64,000 nt of DNA, from assembly GCA_017937655.1 (NCBI GenBank), contig JAGBDE010000008.1:1-64000 (forward strand), given 5' to 3'. A program made the translations under genes and the position numbers. The notes below the pieces were generated by a model. It saw only the letters and a list, made by a program, of their open reading frames with translations, was not told the DNA's origin and ran no database searches. Shown piece after piece: positions 15,623-59,713 of this stretch (position 1 is its first letter; every line of letters begins with the position of its first letter). Source of the DNA: Clostridia bacterium. GTDB lineage: Bacteria; Bacillota; Clostridia; Christensenellales; Aristaeellaceae.

Positions 15623-16309
15623 TCACACGCCGTATTTGATCCGGATCCGTTCCAATTTTTCTCCGATGGGTTTTGCCAGAAGCCACAGAAAGGCCACGTT
15701 GCTCAGGGCGTAGAGCGCCGTGTGGGGCAGCGCCGCCAGGATGACGCTGCGGTACATCCCGCCCTGAAAGCCGCCGTCCACCCAGAGCACCGTCCACACG
15801 TCCATCAGCAGGGAGTAAACCACGCCGGACACAAGGCCGTACAAAAGCAGCAGCCAGCGGTGTTTTTTCAGGGGCCCGGCCAGGTAGCCCGCCACCAGGC
15901 CGATCATCCCCCAAGCCAGCATCTGGAACGCCGTCCAGGGGCCCTGGCCGAAGGAAAAGTTGGACAGCAGGGCCGATAATGCGCCCACCAGAAAGCCGCT
16001 TTCCCCGCCCAGGTACAGGGCCGTCAGGATGGTCAGGGCCGTGACCGGCTTGAACAGGGGGATGAACCGCCCGGCGATGGACAGCGCGGTCATCACCGCC
16101 ACCAGAACCAGGCGGCGGGCGCCGGTTTTTTTGCGCTCAAACCCGGCAACGAAACACAGCAGCGCCATGGCCGCCACTCCCAGGGAAATGAGCAGGTACT
16201 GCCTGCCCCGGAAAACCAGCGCGCCAAGGATCACCAGCAGAGGGATGCCCACAAAGGGCAGGCCGTAGCGCAGCAACGTTCTCAGGCGGCTGTTTTTGAT
16301 CACCATCAT
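15623..16309 (-). CDS. ECF transporter S component (probable corrinoid/cobalamin)
   Basis: 228 residues with about six to seven hydrophobic helices (for example YGLPFVGIPLLVILGALVF, LLISLGVAAMALLCFVAG). S components bind one vitamin and topple in the membrane to release it. ATGA overlap with the double-ATPase gene. The substrate cannot be read from this sequence; cobalamin or a precursor is inferred from the riboswitch at the head of the operon and the intrinsic-factor-like protein. Confidence 0.75.
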   Translation of the reverse strand: MMVIKNSRLRTLLRYGLPFVGIPLLVILGALVFRGRQYLLISLGVAAMALLCFVAGFERKKTGARRLVLVAVMTALSIAGRFIPLFKPVTALTILTALYLGGESGFLVGALSALLSNFSFGQGPWTAFQMLAWGMIGLVAGYLAGPLKKHRWLLLLYGLVSGVVYSLLMDVWTVLWVDGGFQGGMYRSVILAALPHTALYALSNVAFLWLLAKPIGEKLERIRIKYGV

Positions 16310-17943
16310 GCTCCGCCCTCTTTCCGGCCGTTGCGCCTGCAAAGCTCCGCCGCATCTTCCAGGGTGACCGCATAGTCAAACCAGCCCCGGGTCATGCGGC
16401 TGACGGCGGTGGTGTAGAAGCTGTTTTCGTGAAAAAACTGCCGGGGCGCGCCCTGGGACACGATCTGCCCCCGGAAGAACATGGCGCAGCGGTCGGCGCA
16501 GGCGGCGGCAAACTCCACGTCATGGGTCACCACCAGAATGGTCATGCCTTGCTGCTTCAAGTTTTTCAGCACGGTGATGAGTTTCGCTTTTGCGGATGCG
16601 TCCACCCCCTTGGTGGGCTCGTCCAGAAGCAGCAGCCGGGGCCGGGTGGCCAGCACCCTGGCCAACGCTACCAACTGCTGCTGGCCGCCGGACAGGTCGT
16701 AGGGGTGCTGATGGAACAGGGGCAGCAGGTCAAAGGGCAGCAGTTCCAGCCCGACCTCCGCGCCTGCAAGCTCCTCCCCCACCGTGTTTTTCAAAAACAC
16801 CGTCTGCACGTCCTGGGGCAGCATGGCCAGGCACTCCCGGTACAGGCTCTGGTTTTTGTACTCCTTCAGCTTTTTGCCAAACACTTTCACCTGGCCCGCA
16901 TACGGCCGGTGCAGCCCTGCCGCCACGCTGAGGGTGGTGGTTTTGCCCGATCCATTGCCCCCCAGAATGCAGCAGATTTCTCCCTCCCGGGCCGTGAAAC
17001 TGAGGCCCCGAAGCACATCCGGGGCGTTTTTTTCGTAGCGGAAAAACACGTCCGAAAATTCCAGGGCCGCCGACTCATTCCCCGGGGCCGATTCCTCCGG
17101 CAGGCTGCGCAAATCATTGCGATAGCTTTCTGCCACAAACCGCCGGCCCTCCCGCACGTCCAGCGGGCAGGGGCCATCGGCCTGCAAAGCGTGGTACAGC
17201 CTGGGCGCGGCGGGCATGGCGCAAAGCAGCTCCTGCCGCCCCTTCAGCCCAGCAATCACCTGCCGCGGCGCATCAAGGGCCAGCATTTGGCCGCCGTCCA
17301 GCACCATCAGCCGGTCGCACAGGGGGACGACCTCCTCCAGCCGATGTTCCGCCATCAGCACCGTGAGGCCCGTATCCCGGTTCAGTTTGCGCACGGTGGC
17401 GATGAACTCGGATGCAGCAATGGGATCCAGCTGGGCGGTGGGTTCGTCCAGGATGAGAACCTCCGGCTGCATGACCATGACCGCCGCCAGATTGAGCAGC
17501 TGCTTCTGGCCGCCGGAAAGCTGGCTGACCGGCCGGTCAAACCAGTCCTCAATGCCGAAATACGCGGCCATCTCCGCCATGCGCCGGGCCATGACCGGCT
17601 GGGGCAGGTTCCTGTTTTCCAGTCCGAAGGCCAGCTCGTGCCAGACCTTATCCGTCACGATCTGCTCCTCCGGCCGCTGCATCACATACCCAATGCGAAA
17701 CGCCGTGGCCCCGTCAGGCAGATCCTCCAGGGGGATGCCCTCCAGCAGAATGCGGCCGGTTTTGTCGCCCAGGGGGGCCAGCTCCGGCTTGAGCAACCGC
17801 AGCAAGGTGGACTTCCCGCTGCCGGTCAGGCCGCACAGGGCGACCATCTCGCCCCTCTGAACCGCAAAGCTGACGTCCTTCACCGCCGGGGCCTTGCCGC
17901 CGGGGTAGGTAAAGCTCAGATTTTCGACTGCAATAAGCGCCAC
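16306..17943 (-). CDS. Fused double ATPase of an ECF transporter (EcfA-EcfA')
   Basis: 545 residues carrying two ABC ATPase domains in tandem. First: GLTGSGKS, LSGGQKQ, LILDEPT, followed by MAEHRLEEV. Second (from about 285): GGNGSGKT, LSGGQQQ, LLLDEPTKGVD and VTHDVEF. In most bacteria EcfA and EcfA' are separate chains; here one protein supplies both. It powers vitamin uptake together with EcfT and the S component. It overlaps ecfT by 28 nt and the S-component gene by 4 nt, so expression is tightly coupled. Confidence 0.9.
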   Translation of the reverse strand: MALIAVENLSFTYPGGKAPAVKDVSFAVQRGEMVALCGLTGSGKSTLLRLLKPELAPLGDKTGRILLEGIPLEDLPDGATAFRIGYVMQRPEEQIVTDKVWHELAFGLENRNLPQPVMARRMAEMAAYFGIEDWFDRPVSQLSGGQKQLLNLAAVMVMQPEVLILDEPTAQLDPIAASEFIATVRKLNRDTGLTVLMAEHRLEEVVPLCDRLMVLDGGQMLALDAPRQVIAGLKGRQELLCAMPAAPRLYHALQADGPCPLDVREGRRFVAESYRNDLRSLPEESAPGNESAALEFSDVFFRYEKNAPDVLRGLSFTAREGEICCILGGNGSGKTTTLSVAAGLHRPYAGQVKVFGKKLKEYKNQSLYRECLAMLPQDVQTVFLKNTVGEELAGAEVGLELLPFDLLPLFHQHPYDLSGGQQQLVALARVLATRPRLLLLDEPTKGVDASAKAKLITVLKNLKQQGMTILVVTHDVEFAAACADRCAMFFRGQIVSQGAPRQFFHENSFYTTAVSRMTRGWFDYAVTLEDAAELCRRNGRKEGGA

Positions 17944-18779
17944 CGGATGGCCTCCTTTAACTGAAAGATTGCGGGCAGCAGGGCCAGCACGGCGTAGGCC
18001 GCATAGCCCAAGACGCTCAGCGCCGTCATGGGCGCGGCGGAAAGCTGCGGATAAAATGCGAACCGTCGGCTTTGCGCACCCGCCAGCGCAAGGCCCGCCA
18101 GCGCCAGCGATATCACCGCCAGCAAAACGTCGCCCGTGCGCCAGGAAAACAAGAAAAAGCGGGAACGCGGGCCAAGGCCGTAACCCCGGGCCGACATACT
18201 GTCCGCGGTGACGATGCCGTTTTCCAGGGCCCAGGTGGTCAGAATGGAAAACTCCCGTGCGCCGCCCCGGAGGCCGTCCACCAAATTGTCCTCCCGGTAG
18301 AGACCCAGGGCCAGCTGCGCCTGATGCACCTTCCGGCCCTGACGACCAAGCAGGGGCACGTACCGCAGCGCCATGGACAAAACCAGCGCCAGCTTGGGGC
18401 TGAGGCCGCCAAACAGGTACAGCAGCTTATCGCTGGTCATGATGGCGGAAAATCCCCGCAGCCAGTACAGCGCGGCAAGGAGCATCCCCCCGGCGGCCAG
18501 GCCGTAAAGCAGGGCCTCCAGGGTAATGGGGCTGTGATTCAGCACAAACAGCACCGTCCGCCCGTTGTGGGAAACCAGCGGGTTGATGAGGGCCGTGGCC
18601 AGAAACAGCCCCAGGGCAAACCCATGCCCCCGCCTTCCGCCCAGCACAAAGAAGGTCAGGAGGGCCCCCGCCAGCGAGATGCTGAGAATCACCGGTTCCA
18701 TGCACAGCATGGCCACCCCGGCCGTCGCCAGGAAATACACCGCCAGCGCCACCGGGTTTCTGTCCGCAAAGCTCCTCAT
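17916..18779 (-). CDS. ecfT: EcfT transmembrane coupling protein
   Basis: 287 residues, multiple membrane helices and the coupling motif SMSARGYGLG (Ala-Arg-Gly) that contacts the ATPases. It joins the ATPases to the S component in the membrane. Located between the intrinsic-factor-like gene (17-bp gap) and the ATPase fusion. A dedicated, operon-encoded EcfT points to a group I ECF transporter rather than a shared group II module. Confidence 0.88.
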   Translation of the reverse strand: MRSFADRNPVALAVYFLATAGVAMLCMEPVILSISLAGALLTFFVLGGRRGHGFALGLFLATALINPLVSHNGRTVLFVLNHSPITLEALLYGLAAGGMLLAALYWLRGFSAIMTSDKLLYLFGGLSPKLALVLSMALRYVPLLGRQGRKVHQAQLALGLYREDNLVDGLRGGAREFSILTTWALENGIVTADSMSARGYGLGPRSRFFLFSWRTGDVLLAVISLALAGLALAGAQSRRFAFYPQLSAAPMTALSVLGYAAYAVLALLPAIFQLKEAIRWRLLQSKI

Positions 18780-18796: not shown

Positions 18797-20281
18797 TCAG
18801 TTCAGGTCGTTGCCCATTTCACAGGTGTACAGCCATTCAATTTTGTCCCCGTCCTGCAGGGCGTACTGCTCGCAGCCCTGGTCGGCCTCTTGGCCGTTGA
18901 CCCGGAAAATCCAGCCGGACAGGTCGCCGAAATCAAACTCATACAGATTGCTGATGCCGACCACATACCGCATGCCCGCCCCGCCGTTGGTTTCCAGGTG
19001 GATGCGGTGCACCTGGGCGGCCTCGGTGAGGATGGTGTAGACCGTGTCCCCCGGGGCGATAGGAAAGCTGGTTTCCGGCAAGATCAGGCCGTCCTGGGGC
19101 ACGTGGTCAGGCTTCTTTTCCAGCACATCGCAGCGGATGGACAGGGTCACGGCGCCCACGGCGTTTTCCTTGGTGATGGCCTGGCCGGAATAATAACGGT
19201 CTGCCGACTGGAAGTCCAGGCTCCATACCAGGCCGACCAAAACGGCTGCCATCACCAGCACCGCCAGGAAATTCTTGCCGCTGCGTTTTTTCAAAATCAG
19301 AAGCAAAACACAAGCCAGAGCTGCCATCCCGGCGATGACCAGACTGGCCACGGTCTTGCCGTCCAGGGAGGTTTTCATCGCAGGTTCCTGCCCGGGATCC
19401 AGCAGGTAGATGCTTTGCTTGCCCTCCATCAGCCGCTGATAGGCCGCCAGGGCAAAGAACACCTGGGTGGCGGCGTTGGGATTGCTGCCGCCGCCAAGGG
19501 TGTGGCTGAAACTGCCGTCCGGCAGGCGATAGAGCAGCATGCCATCCAGCAGGGTGTTTCCTTTTTTGAGGAAGCGTTCGTCCTGCAAGCCATCCACGCC
19601 CAGAGAAGCCAGAGCAATCAGCACCTGGGCGGCGCTTTCCGGATTCCCCACGCCGTAGCTGGCAAAGCCGCCGTCCTCCCGCTGCCGGCTTTCCAGCAGC
19701 AAGAGGCCCTTGTCCACAGCGGCGGTCACCCGGTCGTCCCGGCCGTAATCCGGGGCCAATGCCTGCAGGGCCATGGCCGTCACGTCCACGTCGGATACCG
19801 GGCCGGATACCGCCCAGCCGCCGTCTTCCAGCTGCAGGGACAGCAGCGCGTCCACCGCCCCGGGCCGGTCGCCGGGGATGCCGTTGTTCATCAAATGCAG
19901 GCCGAAAATCCAGCTCATGACCCCCTGCTGCCCCACGGATTCCTCCGCCAGGCGGGCGATCAGCTCCCCGTCGCCCCCAACGGCCAGCAGCGCAAAGGCA
20001 TACTTGAGCCGGGTGGACACCGAGCGCACGACGGTTCCTGCCAGATATTCCTCCAGCCGCTGCCGATAGGCCGAGAAATCATACTCTGTGCCGCTTTGCC
20101 GCAGCGCGATGACCGTCCACTCGTCGCCCACGTCGGCATGGTCCAGCCACGCCTGAACGTCGGCGACGCCTGCGCGCTCCATCATGCCGGAAAGAACTTC
20201 CCCGGCCAGGGTCGGCGCTCCGTCTGCCAGAGCGGCGGGCAATATCAGCAGACACAAGAGAAATGCAACAAATCTCTTCAT
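18797..20281 (-). CDS. Intrinsic-factor/transcobalamin-like membrane protein: alpha-alpha barrel plus DUF4430
   Basis: 494 residues. Signal peptide (KRFVAFLLCLLILPAALA). Residues about 30-300 contain prenyltransferase/squalene-cyclase-type repeats (LEDGGWAVSG, QREDGGFASYGVGNPES, LPDGSFSHTLGG), i.e. an alpha-alpha barrel. Two hydrophobic helices follow (about 313-333 and 340-357), then a DUF4430 domain to the C-terminus with GISNLYEFDFGDLSGWIFRV...DGDKIEWLYT. Animal intrinsic factor and transcobalamin combine the same two folds to bind cobalamin between them. Here the pair is split by membrane helices and lies in an ECF operon under a cobalamin riboswitch, so it probably captures corrinoids at the cell surface. 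Binding is inferred. Confidence 0.8.
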   Translation of the reverse strand: MKRFVAFLLCLLILPAALADGAPTLAGEVLSGMMERAGVADVQAWLDHADVGDEWTVIALRQSGTEYDFSAYRQRLEEYLAGTVVRSVSTRLKYAFALLAVGGDGELIARLAEESVGQQGVMSWIFGLHLMNNGIPGDRPGAVDALLSLQLEDGGWAVSGPVSDVDVTAMALQALAPDYGRDDRVTAAVDKGLLLLESRQREDGGFASYGVGNPESAAQVLIALASLGVDGLQDERFLKKGNTLLDGMLLYRLPDGSFSHTLGGGSNPNAATQVFFALAAYQRLMEGKQSIYLLDPGQEPAMKTSLDGKTVASLVIAGMAALACVLLLILKKRSGKNFLAVLVMAAVLVGLVWSLDFQSADRYYSGQAITKENAVGAVTLSIRCDVLEKKPDHVPQDGLILPETSFPIAPGDTVYTILTEAAQVHRIHLETNGGAGMRYVVGISNLYEFDFGDLSGWIFRVNGQEADQGCEQYALQDGDKIEWLYTCEMGNDLN

Positions 20282-20282
20282 G

Positions 20283-20969
20283 TTACTTCACAATGACCAC
20301 GCACACCGGGGTGACCAGGTTCAGGGTCTCGCTGGACGCGCTGATCAGGTATTCTCCGGCCTCCGCGCAGGTGAAGACCACCTTGCCCTCGGCGTCCGTC
20401 ACCCATTCCGTGGGCTGACCGTCCACCGTGATGACCGCGCCTTCCACCGGCATCGCAACGGGATTCCATTCCGCGTCAAAGCCGGCGGCATACAGGGTCA
20501 GGGGCAATTCTGCGCCCAGCTCCGCTTCCACCACATCCGCGTCAAAGTAGCAATAGGTGTCGCTCCAGGCGGTCAGGTCGGTAAAGGCGTAGGCCTTTAC
20601 GTGGTCGCCAGGCTGAACCGGATCCAGCAGGCTCCAGGCGGACGCATTGTTCAGATAATAGCCATAGCTGCCGCCGTTTTCCACGCCCCACAGCCTCATC
20701 AGGGACAGGCCGAACTCCGTCTCCTCCGTGGCATAGGCGGCCTCGCCGTCGGGATGCCGGGCCACATGCGCCAGCTGCAGCGCATCGCTGATGGTCAGCA
20801 CGCCGTCGCCGTCCACGTCGGTCACATCCACAGGCTCCAGGGCCAGCACCAGCGCGCCGGTATCGTCGGTCAGGCTGACAAACACCTGGGTGGATGCAGG
20901 GGCCTCCGCCGCACAGGCAGCGGCCAGGAGCATCATCAGGGAAAGTGCAAGGGTCAGGATCTTTTTCAT
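20283..20969 (-). CDS. Secreted DUF4430-like protein with a dockerin-like calcium motif
   Basis: 228 residues; start at 20969 follows AAAAAAGGAGACGAAACCC. Signal peptide KKILTLALSLMMLLAAACAAEA, with a Cys that could be a weak lipobox. Residues about 45-65 read DVTDVDGDGVLTISDALQLA, an EF-hand-like loop as in a dockerin half-repeat. The middle (LWGVENGGSYGYYLNNASAW...PGDHVKAYAF) resembles a DUF4430/transcobalamin-like domain, and the C-terminus is an Ig-like module (VEGAVITVDGQPTEWVTD). It ends 1 nt before the next gene. Likely a second extracytoplasmic corrinoid-binding subunit. Confidence 0.65.
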   Translation of the reverse strand: MKKILTLALSLMMLLAAACAAEAPASTQVFVSLTDDTGALVLALEPVDVTDVDGDGVLTISDALQLAHVARHPDGEAAYATEETEFGLSLMRLWGVENGGSYGYYLNNASAWSLLDPVQPGDHVKAYAFTDLTAWSDTYCYFDADVVEAELGAELPLTLYAAGFDAEWNPVAMPVEGAVITVDGQPTEWVTDAEGKVVFTCAEAGEYLISASSETLNLVTPVCVVIVK

Positions 20970-21024
20970 GGGTTTCGTCTCCTTTTTTGGGATGATGTAT
21001 CGCACGCGTTAAGCCGCGCATCGA

Positions 21025-21261
21025 TCATGGATGTTCCGTGGGCTTTATTTGAGCTCTGCGCCGTTTTTTTGATTTCGGCGGCCGGGGCTCCTTCAGACCG
21101 GCAGCTTCCAGCGCCCTTGGCCAGGGCCCCAGGAAGGCCTTGATGCGGCTTCTGTCCACCTCACCAAAGTCCTCCTTTTTGGGCAGGCGGTTCAATTCGC
21201 CCGCACGCTGTTGCAGCTGCGTGATCGCCCACTGCTTTTTGTCCTCCGAGGGCACATCCAT
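21025..21261 (-). CDS. Small protein with an HNH-associated-repeat-like motif
   Basis: 78 residues from the ATG at 21261. A GTG at 21321 would give 98 residues but would place a strong terminator hairpin inside the coding region, so I prefer the shorter form. The core LNRLPKKEDFGEVDRSRIKAFLGPWPRALEAAGL resembles the short repeat found beside HNH homing endonucleases (L..P....F........F..W..AL.AAGL); here it stands alone. Basic tail PPKSKKRRR. It is the first gene after the cobalamin riboswitch; its role is unknown. Confidence 0.5.
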   Translation of the reverse strand: MDVPSEDKKQWAITQLQQRAGELNRLPKKEDFGEVDRSRIKAFLGPWPRALEAAGLKEPRPPKSKKRRRAQIKPTEHP

Positions 21262-21276
21262 CACCCCAAACAAAAA

Positions 21277-21306
21277 TACTCTTTTGAATTGCGGTTCAAA
21301 AGAGTA
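21277..21306 (-). terminator. Intrinsic terminator in the riboswitch leader
   Basis: Perfect 12-bp arms TACTCTTTTGAA and TTCAAAAGAGTA with a 6-nt loop; in minus-strand orientation followed by TTTTTG. It lies between the cobalamin aptamer and the first open reading frame. Confidence 0.85.
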
Positions 21307-21342
21307 CAACAGATCAGCCACGGCAAGGCCGGGCCCGGCTCC

Positions 21343-21394
21343 AAAAAAGAGCGCAGACCCTCACGCGCCCGGCGGCGATTGATCGGTTGCACTC
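21343..21394 (-). terminator. Possible expression-platform terminator
   Basis: On the minus strand GAGTGCA and TGCGCTC (one G-U pair) close a GC-rich interior and are followed by TTTTTT. It begins about 27 nt after the aptamer and is a second candidate switch terminator. Confidence 0.45.
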
Positions 21395-21420
21395 TTCACA
21401 CCAAATTGTGGTAAACCTGA

Positions 21421-21610
21421 AAAATACGGCAGGTATCCTGACTTATGACAACGCAGGGCCGTCCCCCGCGAAAGAACACCCTTCTCAGGGCCAGGCCCCA
21501 ATGGATATGTGTTCCCCTTCTCATCAAATACAGTAATGGCGGTTGTTCCGGATTCAAACCGGATTCCCTATTGCTTCTACTCAGTCTACAACTTTTCAAA
21601 CCGTATTTTC
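21421..21610 (-). ncRNA. Cobalamin riboswitch aptamer
   Basis: P1 is formed by AAAATACGG and CCGTATTTT at the two ends (9 bp). Between them, minus strand, are conserved cobalamin-aptamer blocks: AATAGGGAATCCGG (5' part), TTTGAATCCGGA, and the 3' signature AAGTCAGGATACCTGCC, the hallmark of this class. It precedes the DUF4430/ECF operon and should switch it off when adenosyl- or methylcobalamin is plentiful, through the terminators downstream. Confidence 0.9.
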
Positions 21611-21636
21611 ATCAACAGTATGCATTTGTCCCTTCG

Positions 21637-21666
21637 ATTGTAGCATCCCCCAAAAGCCCATGTCAA
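21637..21666 (-). promoter_or_regulatory. Promoter of the cobalamin riboswitch operon
   Basis: Minus strand TTGACA, 18 bp, TACAAT. Start near 21630, about 20 nt upstream of the aptamer. Confidence 0.75.
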
Positions 21667-21711: not shown

Positions 21712-23043
21712 TCAATAATAGGGGTTGAGAGGGATGCCGTTAAGGGGCAGCGTGTTGCTGTCAAAGCGATTGTAGCCTGTCCAGAGCCACTTATTGCCCA
21801 CATGCACTTCCACCCACCAGATGCCGTTGTAGCTGTCCCAGGCGCGGGAGCGGACTTCCACCCACACGTTCGCCAGCTGGTTGTAAGAGCCTGTATCGTC
21901 ATACCAGGTACCAGGGCCGCTGCGGGTAGAAAGCCGCTGGAGGGTATAGCCATACACCGTCTGCCCGAAAACCGGGCCACTATATTCAATCCAAGTCATT
22001 TCCGTGGGGGCGACGGTAGGTACTGCCGTGGGAACCGCAGTAGGGATTGGCGTAGGAACAGGCGTGGGGACCGGCGTGGGAGCACGGGTCACCGTCACCA
22101 CCGGCGGCACCGTAGGCATAGAATTGAACAAAGGAATAGAATCCAGAGGCAAAGTAGTGGAATCAAAGCGAGAATAGTTGGTCCACAACCATTCCGCACC
22201 AATGAGCACTTCCACCCACCACATATCGTTGCCATCGTCCCAGGCACGGCTGCGGATGGGCAACCACTGATTCTTCAGGGCATTATAGGTGCCACCGCCA
22301 CCATAATTGCTGCCGGGACCTTTACGGCAGGAAATACGCTGCACCGAATAGCCCCACAGTACGCCAGACAAATCGGGCTGCACAGCGATACCGTGGATGG
22401 GTAGGTCGTAAATATTCAGGGTGTTGCTGTCAAAGCGGTCATAGGGCGTCCAGAGCCACTTGCCGTTGACCAAAACCTCTATCCACCACATCTCATTGGT
22501 ACCGTCCCATCCGCGGGAGCGGACGGACAGCCAGGTATTGGCTAATTCACTGTAATTCCCCCCAGAAGAATAGCTGCTGCTGGGGCCGGTACGAGTGGAG
22601 ATGCGCTTGATGGCATACGCGCTGAGGATGACCTCTTCCGGCTGAGGAGTGGGAGTGGGCGCCTGGGTCACAGGAGGATTTGTGGTTCCGCCGGAAGGCG
22701 TACCGCTCCACAAGGGAATGACTTCCAAGGGCAACGTCGCACTGTCAAAGCGCTTGTAGCCCGTCCAGAGCCACTGGTCGCCCACCAAGACTTCCACCCA
22801 CCAGATCTGGTTGCTGCTGTCCCAGGCACGGGAGCGCACCTGCACCCACACGTTTTTCAGGTGGTTGAATGTGCCCGTTTCCGCATAATTTGTGCCGGGG
22901 CCGCTGCGAGTGGACAGACGATCAATGGTATAGCCGTAAAGCACATCGGCGTCGGCCCGGGTCTCTGCAGGCACGCAGAGCACGCCCGCCAGCATGACCA
23001 GCAGGCACAGCAGCGATACAAGACGCATTCCGTTCTTGTTCAT
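21712..23043 (-). CDS. Secreted protein with four SH3-like repeats
   Basis: 443 residues; signal peptide (LVSLLCLLVMLAGVLCVPAETRA). Four copies of a unit of about 75 residues, each with RLSTRSGPGTNY, VRSRAWDS, WWVEVLVG and WLWTGYKRFDS. This is the layout of bacterial SH3 domains (RxGPGTNY signature) that bind cell-wall peptides. Unlike many SH3b proteins there is no hydrolase domain. Units are separated by Pro/Thr-rich linkers (TQAPTPTPQP; a longer PTPVPTPVPTPIPTA run between units 3 and 4). It probably attaches to the wall. GGGAG precedes the ATG; the esterase gene upstream ends 22 bp before it and is probably co-transcribed. Confidence 0.8.
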   Translation of the reverse strand: MNKNGMRLVSLLCLLVMLAGVLCVPAETRADADVLYGYTIDRLSTRSGPGTNYAETGTFNHLKNVWVQVRSRAWDSSNQIWWVEVLVGDQWLWTGYKRFDSATLPLEVIPLWSGTPSGGTTNPPVTQAPTPTPQPEEVILSAYAIKRISTRTGPSSSYSSGGNYSELANTWLSVRSRGWDGTNEMWWIEVLVNGKWLWTPYDRFDSNTLNIYDLPIHGIAVQPDLSGVLWGYSVQRISCRKGPGSNYGGGGTYNALKNQWLPIRSRAWDDGNDMWWVEVLIGAEWLWTNYSRFDSTTLPLDSIPLFNSMPTVPPVVTVTRAPTPVPTPVPTPIPTAVPTAVPTVAPTEMTWIEYSGPVFGQTVYGYTLQRLSTRSGPGTWYDDTGSYNQLANVWVEVRSRAWDSYNGIWWVEVHVGNKWLWTGYNRFDSNTLPLNGIPLNPYY

Positions 23044-59440: not shown

Positions 59441-59713
59441 AAAACCCGTCTCAAAGTTTTTTCTTTGAGACGGGTGTGTTCACATCCGCGGTACCACTCA
59501 AATTGCAGCATCTGCTGCCACTCATCGGGTTCTATCAAACCCTGTGCATTCACGCAGCCTCACGGAAAACCTTACTTTTGGCATTTCAGGCTTTCAACTC
59601 AGAAGGGATAAGCGCTTGAAACCTCTGCTGCCGGTTCGCACCAACCACCGGCTCTCTGAAAGCGTCCGTTTCGGCCGTCTTCGTCATCGTCGTTCAAATG
59701 GTATTCAATTTAC
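59441..59713 (-). ncRNA. T-box leader (tentative leucine specifier)
   Basis: On the minus strand, Stem I is seen with distal AGAGAGCCGGT...GGTGCGAACCGG, Stem III hairpin GGGTTT-GATA-GAACCC, the T-box GAGTGGTACCGCGG (59486-59499) and a perfect 13-bp terminator. The specifier bulge reads CGCTTATCCC: CUU or, in an alternative alignment, UUA, both leucine codons. Uncharged tRNA should stabilise the antiterminator and switch on the fusion gene downstream. T-boxes usually control tRNA synthetases or amino acid genes, so this target is unusual. Confidence 0.85.
59444..59475 (-). terminator. T-box terminator
   Basis: 13-bp perfect stem ACCCGTCTCAAAG / CTTTGAGACGGGT with loop of six A (minus strand) and a run of seven T. 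Confidence 0.95.

Follow-up and report, generated by a model that had tools for sequence, protein, structure and literature searches.

We find that a 494-residue protein encoded in the genome of a Clostridia bacterium combines the two folds of the animal vitamin B12 carriers, an alpha/alpha toroid and a DUF4430 beta domain, and carries a transmembrane hairpin between them. The protein is in our judgement probably a corrinoid catcher, tethered to the membrane, that serves a B12 importer of the ECF type, and the predicted activity of the system as a whole, surface corrinoid capture feeding that importer, is very likely. The DNA that we analysed (the window) is a stretch of 64,000 nucleotides. 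The original prediction, made from its letters, had proposed an open reading frame of this length joining a cyclase-type barrel to a DUF4430 domain, adjoined by EcfT, a double ATPase and an S component and preceded by a cobalamin riboswitch. Each of these elements was recovered, and the reading stands as a well-supported prediction. The features are as follows.

15623..16342, minus strand: S component, CbrT-like (PF07155, E 2.9e-11; PF12822, E 7.8e-8).
16306..17943, minus strand: EcfA-A', a fused double ATPase (TIGR04520, E 1e-102, with ABC_tran matched in two places).
17916..18779, minus strand: EcfT (CbiQ at 19.7 bits, under the Pfam cut-off of 25; of 21 loci, 17 have a relative, which in one case is partial).
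18797..20281, minus strand: 494-residue two-domain membrane protein, bacterial transcobalamin-like (open reading frame, Pfam, 14-sequence alignment, AlphaFold2 model, Foldseek).
18824..19156, minus strand: DUF4430 beta domain, residues about 376-486 (PF14478, E 2.7e-15; profile relative of the transcobalamin beta domain).
19220..19360, minus strand: transmembrane hairpin, residues 308-354, loop KKRSGKN (AlphaFold2 model and hydropathy).
19421..20218, minus strand: alpha/alpha toroid, residues about 22-287 (AlphaFold2 helices, structure matches, profile hits).
20283..21005, minus strand: second secreted protein, 240 residues as listed (signal-peptide-like start; possible transcobalamin beta-type N-terminal domain, containing a DVDGDG motif; C-terminal Ig-like domain).
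21025..21321, minus strand: 98-residue open reading frame with an HNH_repeat domain, the first gene of the operon (PF18780, E 4.9e-10).
21349..21370, minus strand: terminator-like hairpin followed by TTTTTT, a possible expression platform (pattern scan; fold z -1.4, not significant alone).
21411..21620, minus strand: cobalamin riboswitch aptamer (RF00174, 84.6 bits, E 2.1e-19).
21637..21666, minus strand: promoter-like site shortly before the riboswitch, TTGACA-18-TACAAT (11 of 12 consensus positions; a consensus match only).

The DUF4430 domain was matched by PF14478 over residues 411-486 at 57 bits, against a cut-off of 23.8, and was the sole DUF4430 match found by Pfam profile search in the 2.56-Mb genome. 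By itself, the window toroid gives weak sequence matches only, to squalene-cyclase-type repeats; across 31 toroids (the window's and 30 others), SQHop_cyclase_C was matched in 27 and Prenyltrans in 25 (E up to 0.1). The barrel is backed in addition by structure. An AlphaFold2 model built on a 14-sequence alignment (the window protein and 13 relatives) has a mean pLDDT of 81 and a pTM of 0.61. Most of the toroid exceeds a pLDDT of 80, and values below 50 occur at residues 298-308 and 355-362, which are linkers, and at residues 447-456 inside DUF4430.

We used Foldseek to compare this model with 350,542 PDB chains and considered the best 50 matches. Ranks 1-15 are all animal B12 carriers (12 transcobalamin, 1 haptocorrin and 2 intrinsic factor entries), with E values from 2.9e-8 to 9.6e-6 over 464-537 alignment columns, so that both domains are covered. 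Among the same 50 matches, cyclases and other toroids start at rank 16, with E 2e-4 or weaker. The TM scores of ranks 1-15 are low (0.39-0.47 by query length) and their rmsd values high (8.5-15.5 Å), which indicates that both domains are recognised but placed differently with respect to each other than in the carriers. The modelled geometry is not that of a closed clamp, and the inter-domain placement is itself unreliable because the linkers and part of DUF4430 have pLDDT values below 50. Thus, the proposed resemblance to intrinsic factor and transcobalamin holds for the two folds, and does not extend to their mutual placement in the model.

We also examined the kinship of the two domains at the level of sequence profiles. 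A DUF4430 profile of 46 domains (the window's and 45 of 68 collected at E under 1e-4 from locus L029 upward), searched against 177,635 distinct PDB sequences, found transcobalamin-2 first (5NO0, E 4.4e-4) and haptocorrin second (E 0.03). Profile comparison with the transcobalamin beta stretch gave a probability of 94 (E 1e-7), in a register that sets DUF4430 Tyr439 on transcobalamin Tyr362 and Trp457 on Trp377; Trp457 is the single invariant column of the 46-domain alignment. A toroid profile (the window's and 30 of 37 collected toroids) matched cyclases among the PDB sequences, and transcobalamin was absent from its matches at E up to 0.001. The Pfam model for the animal alpha domain, which we take to be the one named Cobalamin_bind, had no match at E up to 0.1 in any of the 31 toroids, window included. 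Direct comparison of the toroid with transcobalamin 174-291 gave a probability of 5%, which is not significant. That non-significant register aligns D164-VDVTAMALQAL with S174-VDTAAMAGLAF, setting Asp166 on Asp176, and puts Ser163 at His173, one residue before the compared stretch. Asp176 and Tyr362 of transcobalamin presumably touch cobalamin, and the middle aspartate, Asp166, is kept in 14 of 14 sequences (the window protein and 13 relatives). His173 of transcobalamin is reported to bind cobalamin (PMC4947154). On the non-significant comparison and the cyclase matches of the profile searches, we rejected the idea that the toroid and the transcobalamin alpha domain are directly homologous in sequence; the toroid's apparent link to transcobalamin comes solely from the fold search of the model.

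The cyclase matches could instead mean that the toroid is a terpene-cyclase-type enzyme. Squalene and drimenyl diphosphate cyclases are its closest relatives by sequence, and its residues 164-169 read DVDVTA where an aligned cyclase has DVDDTC. DXDD is a terpene-cyclase-type motif, but the fourth position of the motif is taken by Val167, which is invariant in 14 of 14 sequences. The predicted outer-face location and the B12-import type of the operon also speak against an enzyme, and we consider this reading very improbable.

Hydropathy gives the 494-residue protein a signal-peptide-like N-terminus and two hydrophobic helices, 311-329 and 337-355, with a K/R-rich loop between them. In all 14 aligned sequences a hairpin of this kind, with 3-5 Lys/Arg in its short loop, separates the toroid from DUF4430. 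Because the loop between the helices is basic, the toroid and DUF4430 should both be outside, and the signal-peptide-like segment together with the positive-inside hairpin predicts a secreted, surface-located protein. Homologues in which the two domains are encoded separately point the same way. At the end of the toroid protein of loci L038 and L039 there is one transmembrane helix with a basic tail after it, and the next gene encodes a short basic stretch, one helix and then DUF4430 (helices read by hydropathy and by eye in L038, and by eye in L039). Read by eye, the toroid proteins of L037 and L083 have no C-terminal helix; the DUF4430 protein begins with a helix in L037 and is lipoprotein-like in L083. 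The conserved basic loop and the split homologues thus strengthen the earlier suggestion that both domains may share the outer face of the membrane.

In the toroid tree, a branch with support 100/98 separates the 14 one-gene rows from 8 two-gene rows. The DUF4430 tree groups the fused-type locus L024 with the two-gene rows, and a single change is needed in 52% of its bootstrap trees. A single event is favoured, rather than proved, by these trees.

On the minus strand the order of elements is promoter-like site, riboswitch, terminator-like hairpin, HNH_repeat gene, 240-residue protein, 494-residue protein, EcfT, EcfA-A' and S component. One base separates the frames of the 240- and 494-residue proteins and 17 bases those of the 494-residue protein and EcfT, and the EcfT and EcfA frames overlap, as do those of EcfA and EcfS. 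The co-occurrence of these genes is not a matter of chance, because the same genes recur together in relatives. A genome-wide search, in which 150 of 173 first-look candidates were scored, found no second RF00174. We propose that the riboswitch would act as an OFF switch that permits reading of the operon when AdoCbl is scarce. The toroid and DUF4430 would then both be inserted on the outer face, linked by the two-helix membrane hairpin, and the 494-residue protein would most likely catch B12 outside the cell, perhaps by closing as a clamp, and pass it to the importer.

Directly upstream of the operon lies a 443-residue, secreted-looking protein (21712-23043, minus strand) with four similar repeats by eye and zero Pfam or NCBIfam matches at E up to 0.1. 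Elsewhere in the window there is a T-box leader (59463-59696, minus strand; RF00230, 100.9 bits).

The original prediction was silent on the second secreted protein of the operon. A methionine conserved at residue 13 indicates that this protein probably has 228 residues. Its family occurs in 12 of the 15 fused-type loci defined below, and an alignment of 12 sequences shows no variation at D63, D65, D67 and G68, which belong to its DVDGDG motif. Its structural model (pLDDT 90) has a phage capsid protein as its first Foldseek match and many Ig-type folds among the others; the transcobalamin beta domain 5NO0 ranks twelfth (E 1.1e-3, with a TM of 0.59 by target and an rmsd of 4.3 Å). None of 12 family members has a DUF4430 Pfam match, and profile comparisons gave probabilities of 3-8%, which are not significant. 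We therefore rejected its assignment as a clear DUF4430 protein, given these results, the phage capsid protein at the top of the Foldseek matches and the many Ig folds below it. We regard it as a possible second beta-type unit or docking partner. The HNH_repeat of the preceding gene is a homing-endonuclease-type repeat, placed directly after the riboswitch in a B12 operon; relatives of this gene stand ahead of the 240-residue gene in 6 of 21 loci (L031-L036).

Homologues of the 494-residue protein were present in 12 of 60 genomes, the window's own included. Ten relative loci came from the genome collection, one of which (L030) matches in DUF4430 only. The 15 fused-type loci are the window, L021-L028 and L031-L036, with L025 and L027 being close kin. 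A cobalamin-type riboswitch (RF00174, RF01482 or RF01689) scored above threshold in 11 of the 15. In L024 it falls just under threshold (30.3 of 31.5 bits), L022 and L023 have no cobalamin-type riboswitch, and L028 starts at a contig end. L021 has the same operon genes in a different order.

We extended the analysis to 398 genomes of the phylum; counting the window's own, 126 of them have DUF4430. Our sample comprised 34 loci, the best place in every third of 101 positioned genomes, with the window's excluded and weaker-match genomes left out; each slice reached about 8 kb upstream and 4.7 kb downstream, several being shortened by contig ends. RF00174 was found in 25 of the 34 loci, in 25 of 25 cases on the DUF4430 strand. 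An even spread of the 163 RF00174 found in about 92.4 Mb of these 34 genomes would give 0.74 loci. Because at most 54 first-look candidates were scored per genome, RF00174 may be undercounted and the expected number underestimated, but the gap is big enough to bear this. EcfT or EcfS was present in 32 loci (the exceptions being L092 and L099) and a toroid in 27 (domain E up to 0.01; some matches weak). The homologues are thus found mainly in a cobalamin context. Of the outcomes named as refuting the original prediction, neither a model devoid of the two carrier folds nor homologues mostly outside a cobalamin context was obtained.

Three of the nine sampled loci without the riboswitch are in genomes without any RF00174 found (G283, G209 and G183). 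In two others the slice misses, by about 0.8 kb, an RF00174 on the right strand (G366:C11:3812-4003 and G451:C52:25434-25602). L096 (in G183), L101 and L104 are short slices, which leaves L079 and L092. In L077, L088 and L096, a small DUF4430 protein adjoins an EcfS-like gene, with no EcfT in the slice and no RF00174 found in the genome, and the substrate of these systems may differ. For DUF4430 to be always tied to a cobalamin riboswitch is therefore too strong a statement.

Unusual architectures also occur among the loci. One 455-residue frame (L097:4985-6352, plus strand) matches DUF4430 (E 1e-4) as well as EcfT (E 5e-35); as read from its sequence, it would join the catcher domain directly to a transporter subunit, a further DUF4430-ECF link. 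Giant proteins of 1703 residues (L029:5535-10646, plus strand) and 1769 residues (L075:1957-7266, plus strand) have two toroid and two DUF4430 matches each and are followed by a DUF4430 protein and ECF genes. In L078, L093, L103 and L106, two or three cobalamin riboswitches are clustered ahead of the DUF4430/ECF genes.

These results bear on whether the two domains form a single clamp. They could act separately, with one holding, for example, a cell-wall or host component and the other a corrinoid, as might be suggested by the absence of a closed clamp from the model and by the 7 of 34 sampled loci in which no toroid was found. The presence of a toroid in the other 27 argues against such independence, as does the alignment of Tyr439 and Trp457 with transcobalamin Tyr362 and Trp377, and of Asp166 with Asp176 in the toroid alignment that is not significant. 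We regard separate action as doubtful and favour joint capture of the corrinoid by both domains.

The S component indicates what the importer carries. A profile of 12 family members matched CbrT (6FNP) in the PDB with E 9e-17, ahead of 4HZU (6.6e-5) and a riboflavin S component (3P5N, 0.04), which assigns it, as far as profiles can tell, to the CbrT family. The CbrT of 6FNP is described as a vitamin B12 transporter with a Kd of 9.2 nM for cyanocobalamin (PMC5997447). A B12-binding domain was matched once in the host genome (E 6.5e-29), and the protein that carries it looks by eye to be of MetH type, that of the B12-dependent methionine synthase. CbiC and CobS, the two synthesis genes searched for, had no match in this genome, which is 94% complete, and FecCD gave sub-cut-off matches only. 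Without CbiC and CobS and with a MetH-type gene present, the host probably depends on external corrinoid, for which the operon would be the only route recognised in the genome.

The same evidence bears on the identity of the ligand. CbiQ/CbiO-type labels on the ECF genes might be taken to mean that the operon imports cobalt or another metal. This is scarcely credible, as CbrT is the nearest solved structure to the S component, the best PDB matches of the DUF4430 profile are B12 carriers, and the lack of CbiC and CobS matches leaves no sign of cobalt-using B12 synthesis. Alternatively, the system might capture a corrinoid precursor or incomplete corrinoid (cobinamide) and not a complete cobamide: CbrT also takes up cobinamide (PMC5997447), and Burroughs et al. 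speak of B12 or its precursors (PMC1796856). With no CobS match, cobinamide could not be completed by that route, although the gene could be missing from an assembly that is 94% complete. We judge a precursor to be distinctly unlikely as the ligand and prefer a complete cobamide.

The general view of ECF importers, to our knowledge, is that they function with no separate extracytoplasmic binding protein. On balance, we lean towards a broader picture in which the ECF importer here, and those beside DUF4430 genes across the phylum sample, would be served by an outer-face DUF4430-type catcher. The halves of the 494-residue family would make up a clamp of intrinsic-factor type with its hinge in the membrane, the two-gene form (one helix each) and the one-gene hairpin form would show how the clamp was assembled, and the animal B12 carriers would probably have come from the wider bacterial lineage. 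The window offers a compact, membrane-anchored and experimentally handy intrinsic-factor-like bacterial protein, whose operon also contains the riboswitch, the transporter and the S component. This system makes testable both B12 binding by bacterial DUF4430/toroid proteins and the feeding of an ECF importer by a separate catcher, and it bears on competition for B12 among rumen and gut Clostridia and on the origin of animal B12 carriers.

Several known systems can be compared with the one described here. The two folds of animal transcobalamin, haptocorrin and intrinsic factor are identical in kind and order to those of the 494-residue protein, and their beta domain is related to bacterial DUF4430 by profile comparison. 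In contrast to the animal carriers, the bacterial protein is membrane-anchored, with two helices between its domains, and in the non-significant register transcobalamin His173 is not kept in its toroid. Surface capture in gut bacteria has a counterpart in BtuG, which we take to be a surface B12-capture lipoprotein of Bacteroides. The Bacteroides lipoproteins share with our prediction the capture of B12 at the surface of a gut bacterium, but belong to an outer-membrane lipoprotein system (PMC6143338).

The ECF-CbrT system of Lactobacillus delbrueckii (6FNP) has the S component family, EcfT and ATPase pair in common with the window, whose B12 import is predicted here; the accessible text of that report describes no catcher protein (PMC5997447). 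In L. delbrueckii, cbrT lies in the arrangement nrdJ-cbrS-cbrT-pduO (PMC5997447), whereas in the window the S component gene has the complete ECF module next to it. A proteomics study lists a further lipoprotein as a component of a putative cobalamin ECF transporter; as a separate matter, it places a DUF4430 gene next to rtpR in Lacticaseibacillus rhamnosus (PMC9963975). Among the texts covered by our literature search, none contained a binding test of a bacterial DUF4430/toroid protein.

The concept itself is not new, having been predicted in 2007, which the original prediction missed. Burroughs, Balaji, Iyer and Aravind described toroid+SLBB fusions in Gram-positive bacteria as predicted B12 scavengers, encoded in operons with a CbiO-like ATPase, a CbiQ-like protein and a second surface SLBB protein, in hosts usually without key B12 synthesis enzymes, and proposed transfer to animals (PMC1796856). 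The parts of their text considered here mention no membrane hairpin, riboswitch association or CbrT-type S component (PMC1796856). As far as that account goes, the 494-residue protein is like theirs in having a toroid in the same protein, a transcobalamin-type SLBB domain (here equated with DUF4430) and a predicted surface location, as well as a CbiO/CbiQ-type operon (the CbiQ match being sub-cut-off) and a host without a CbiC or CobS match. The hairpin-joined form is thus a membrane-anchored variant of the kind of protein that they predicted.
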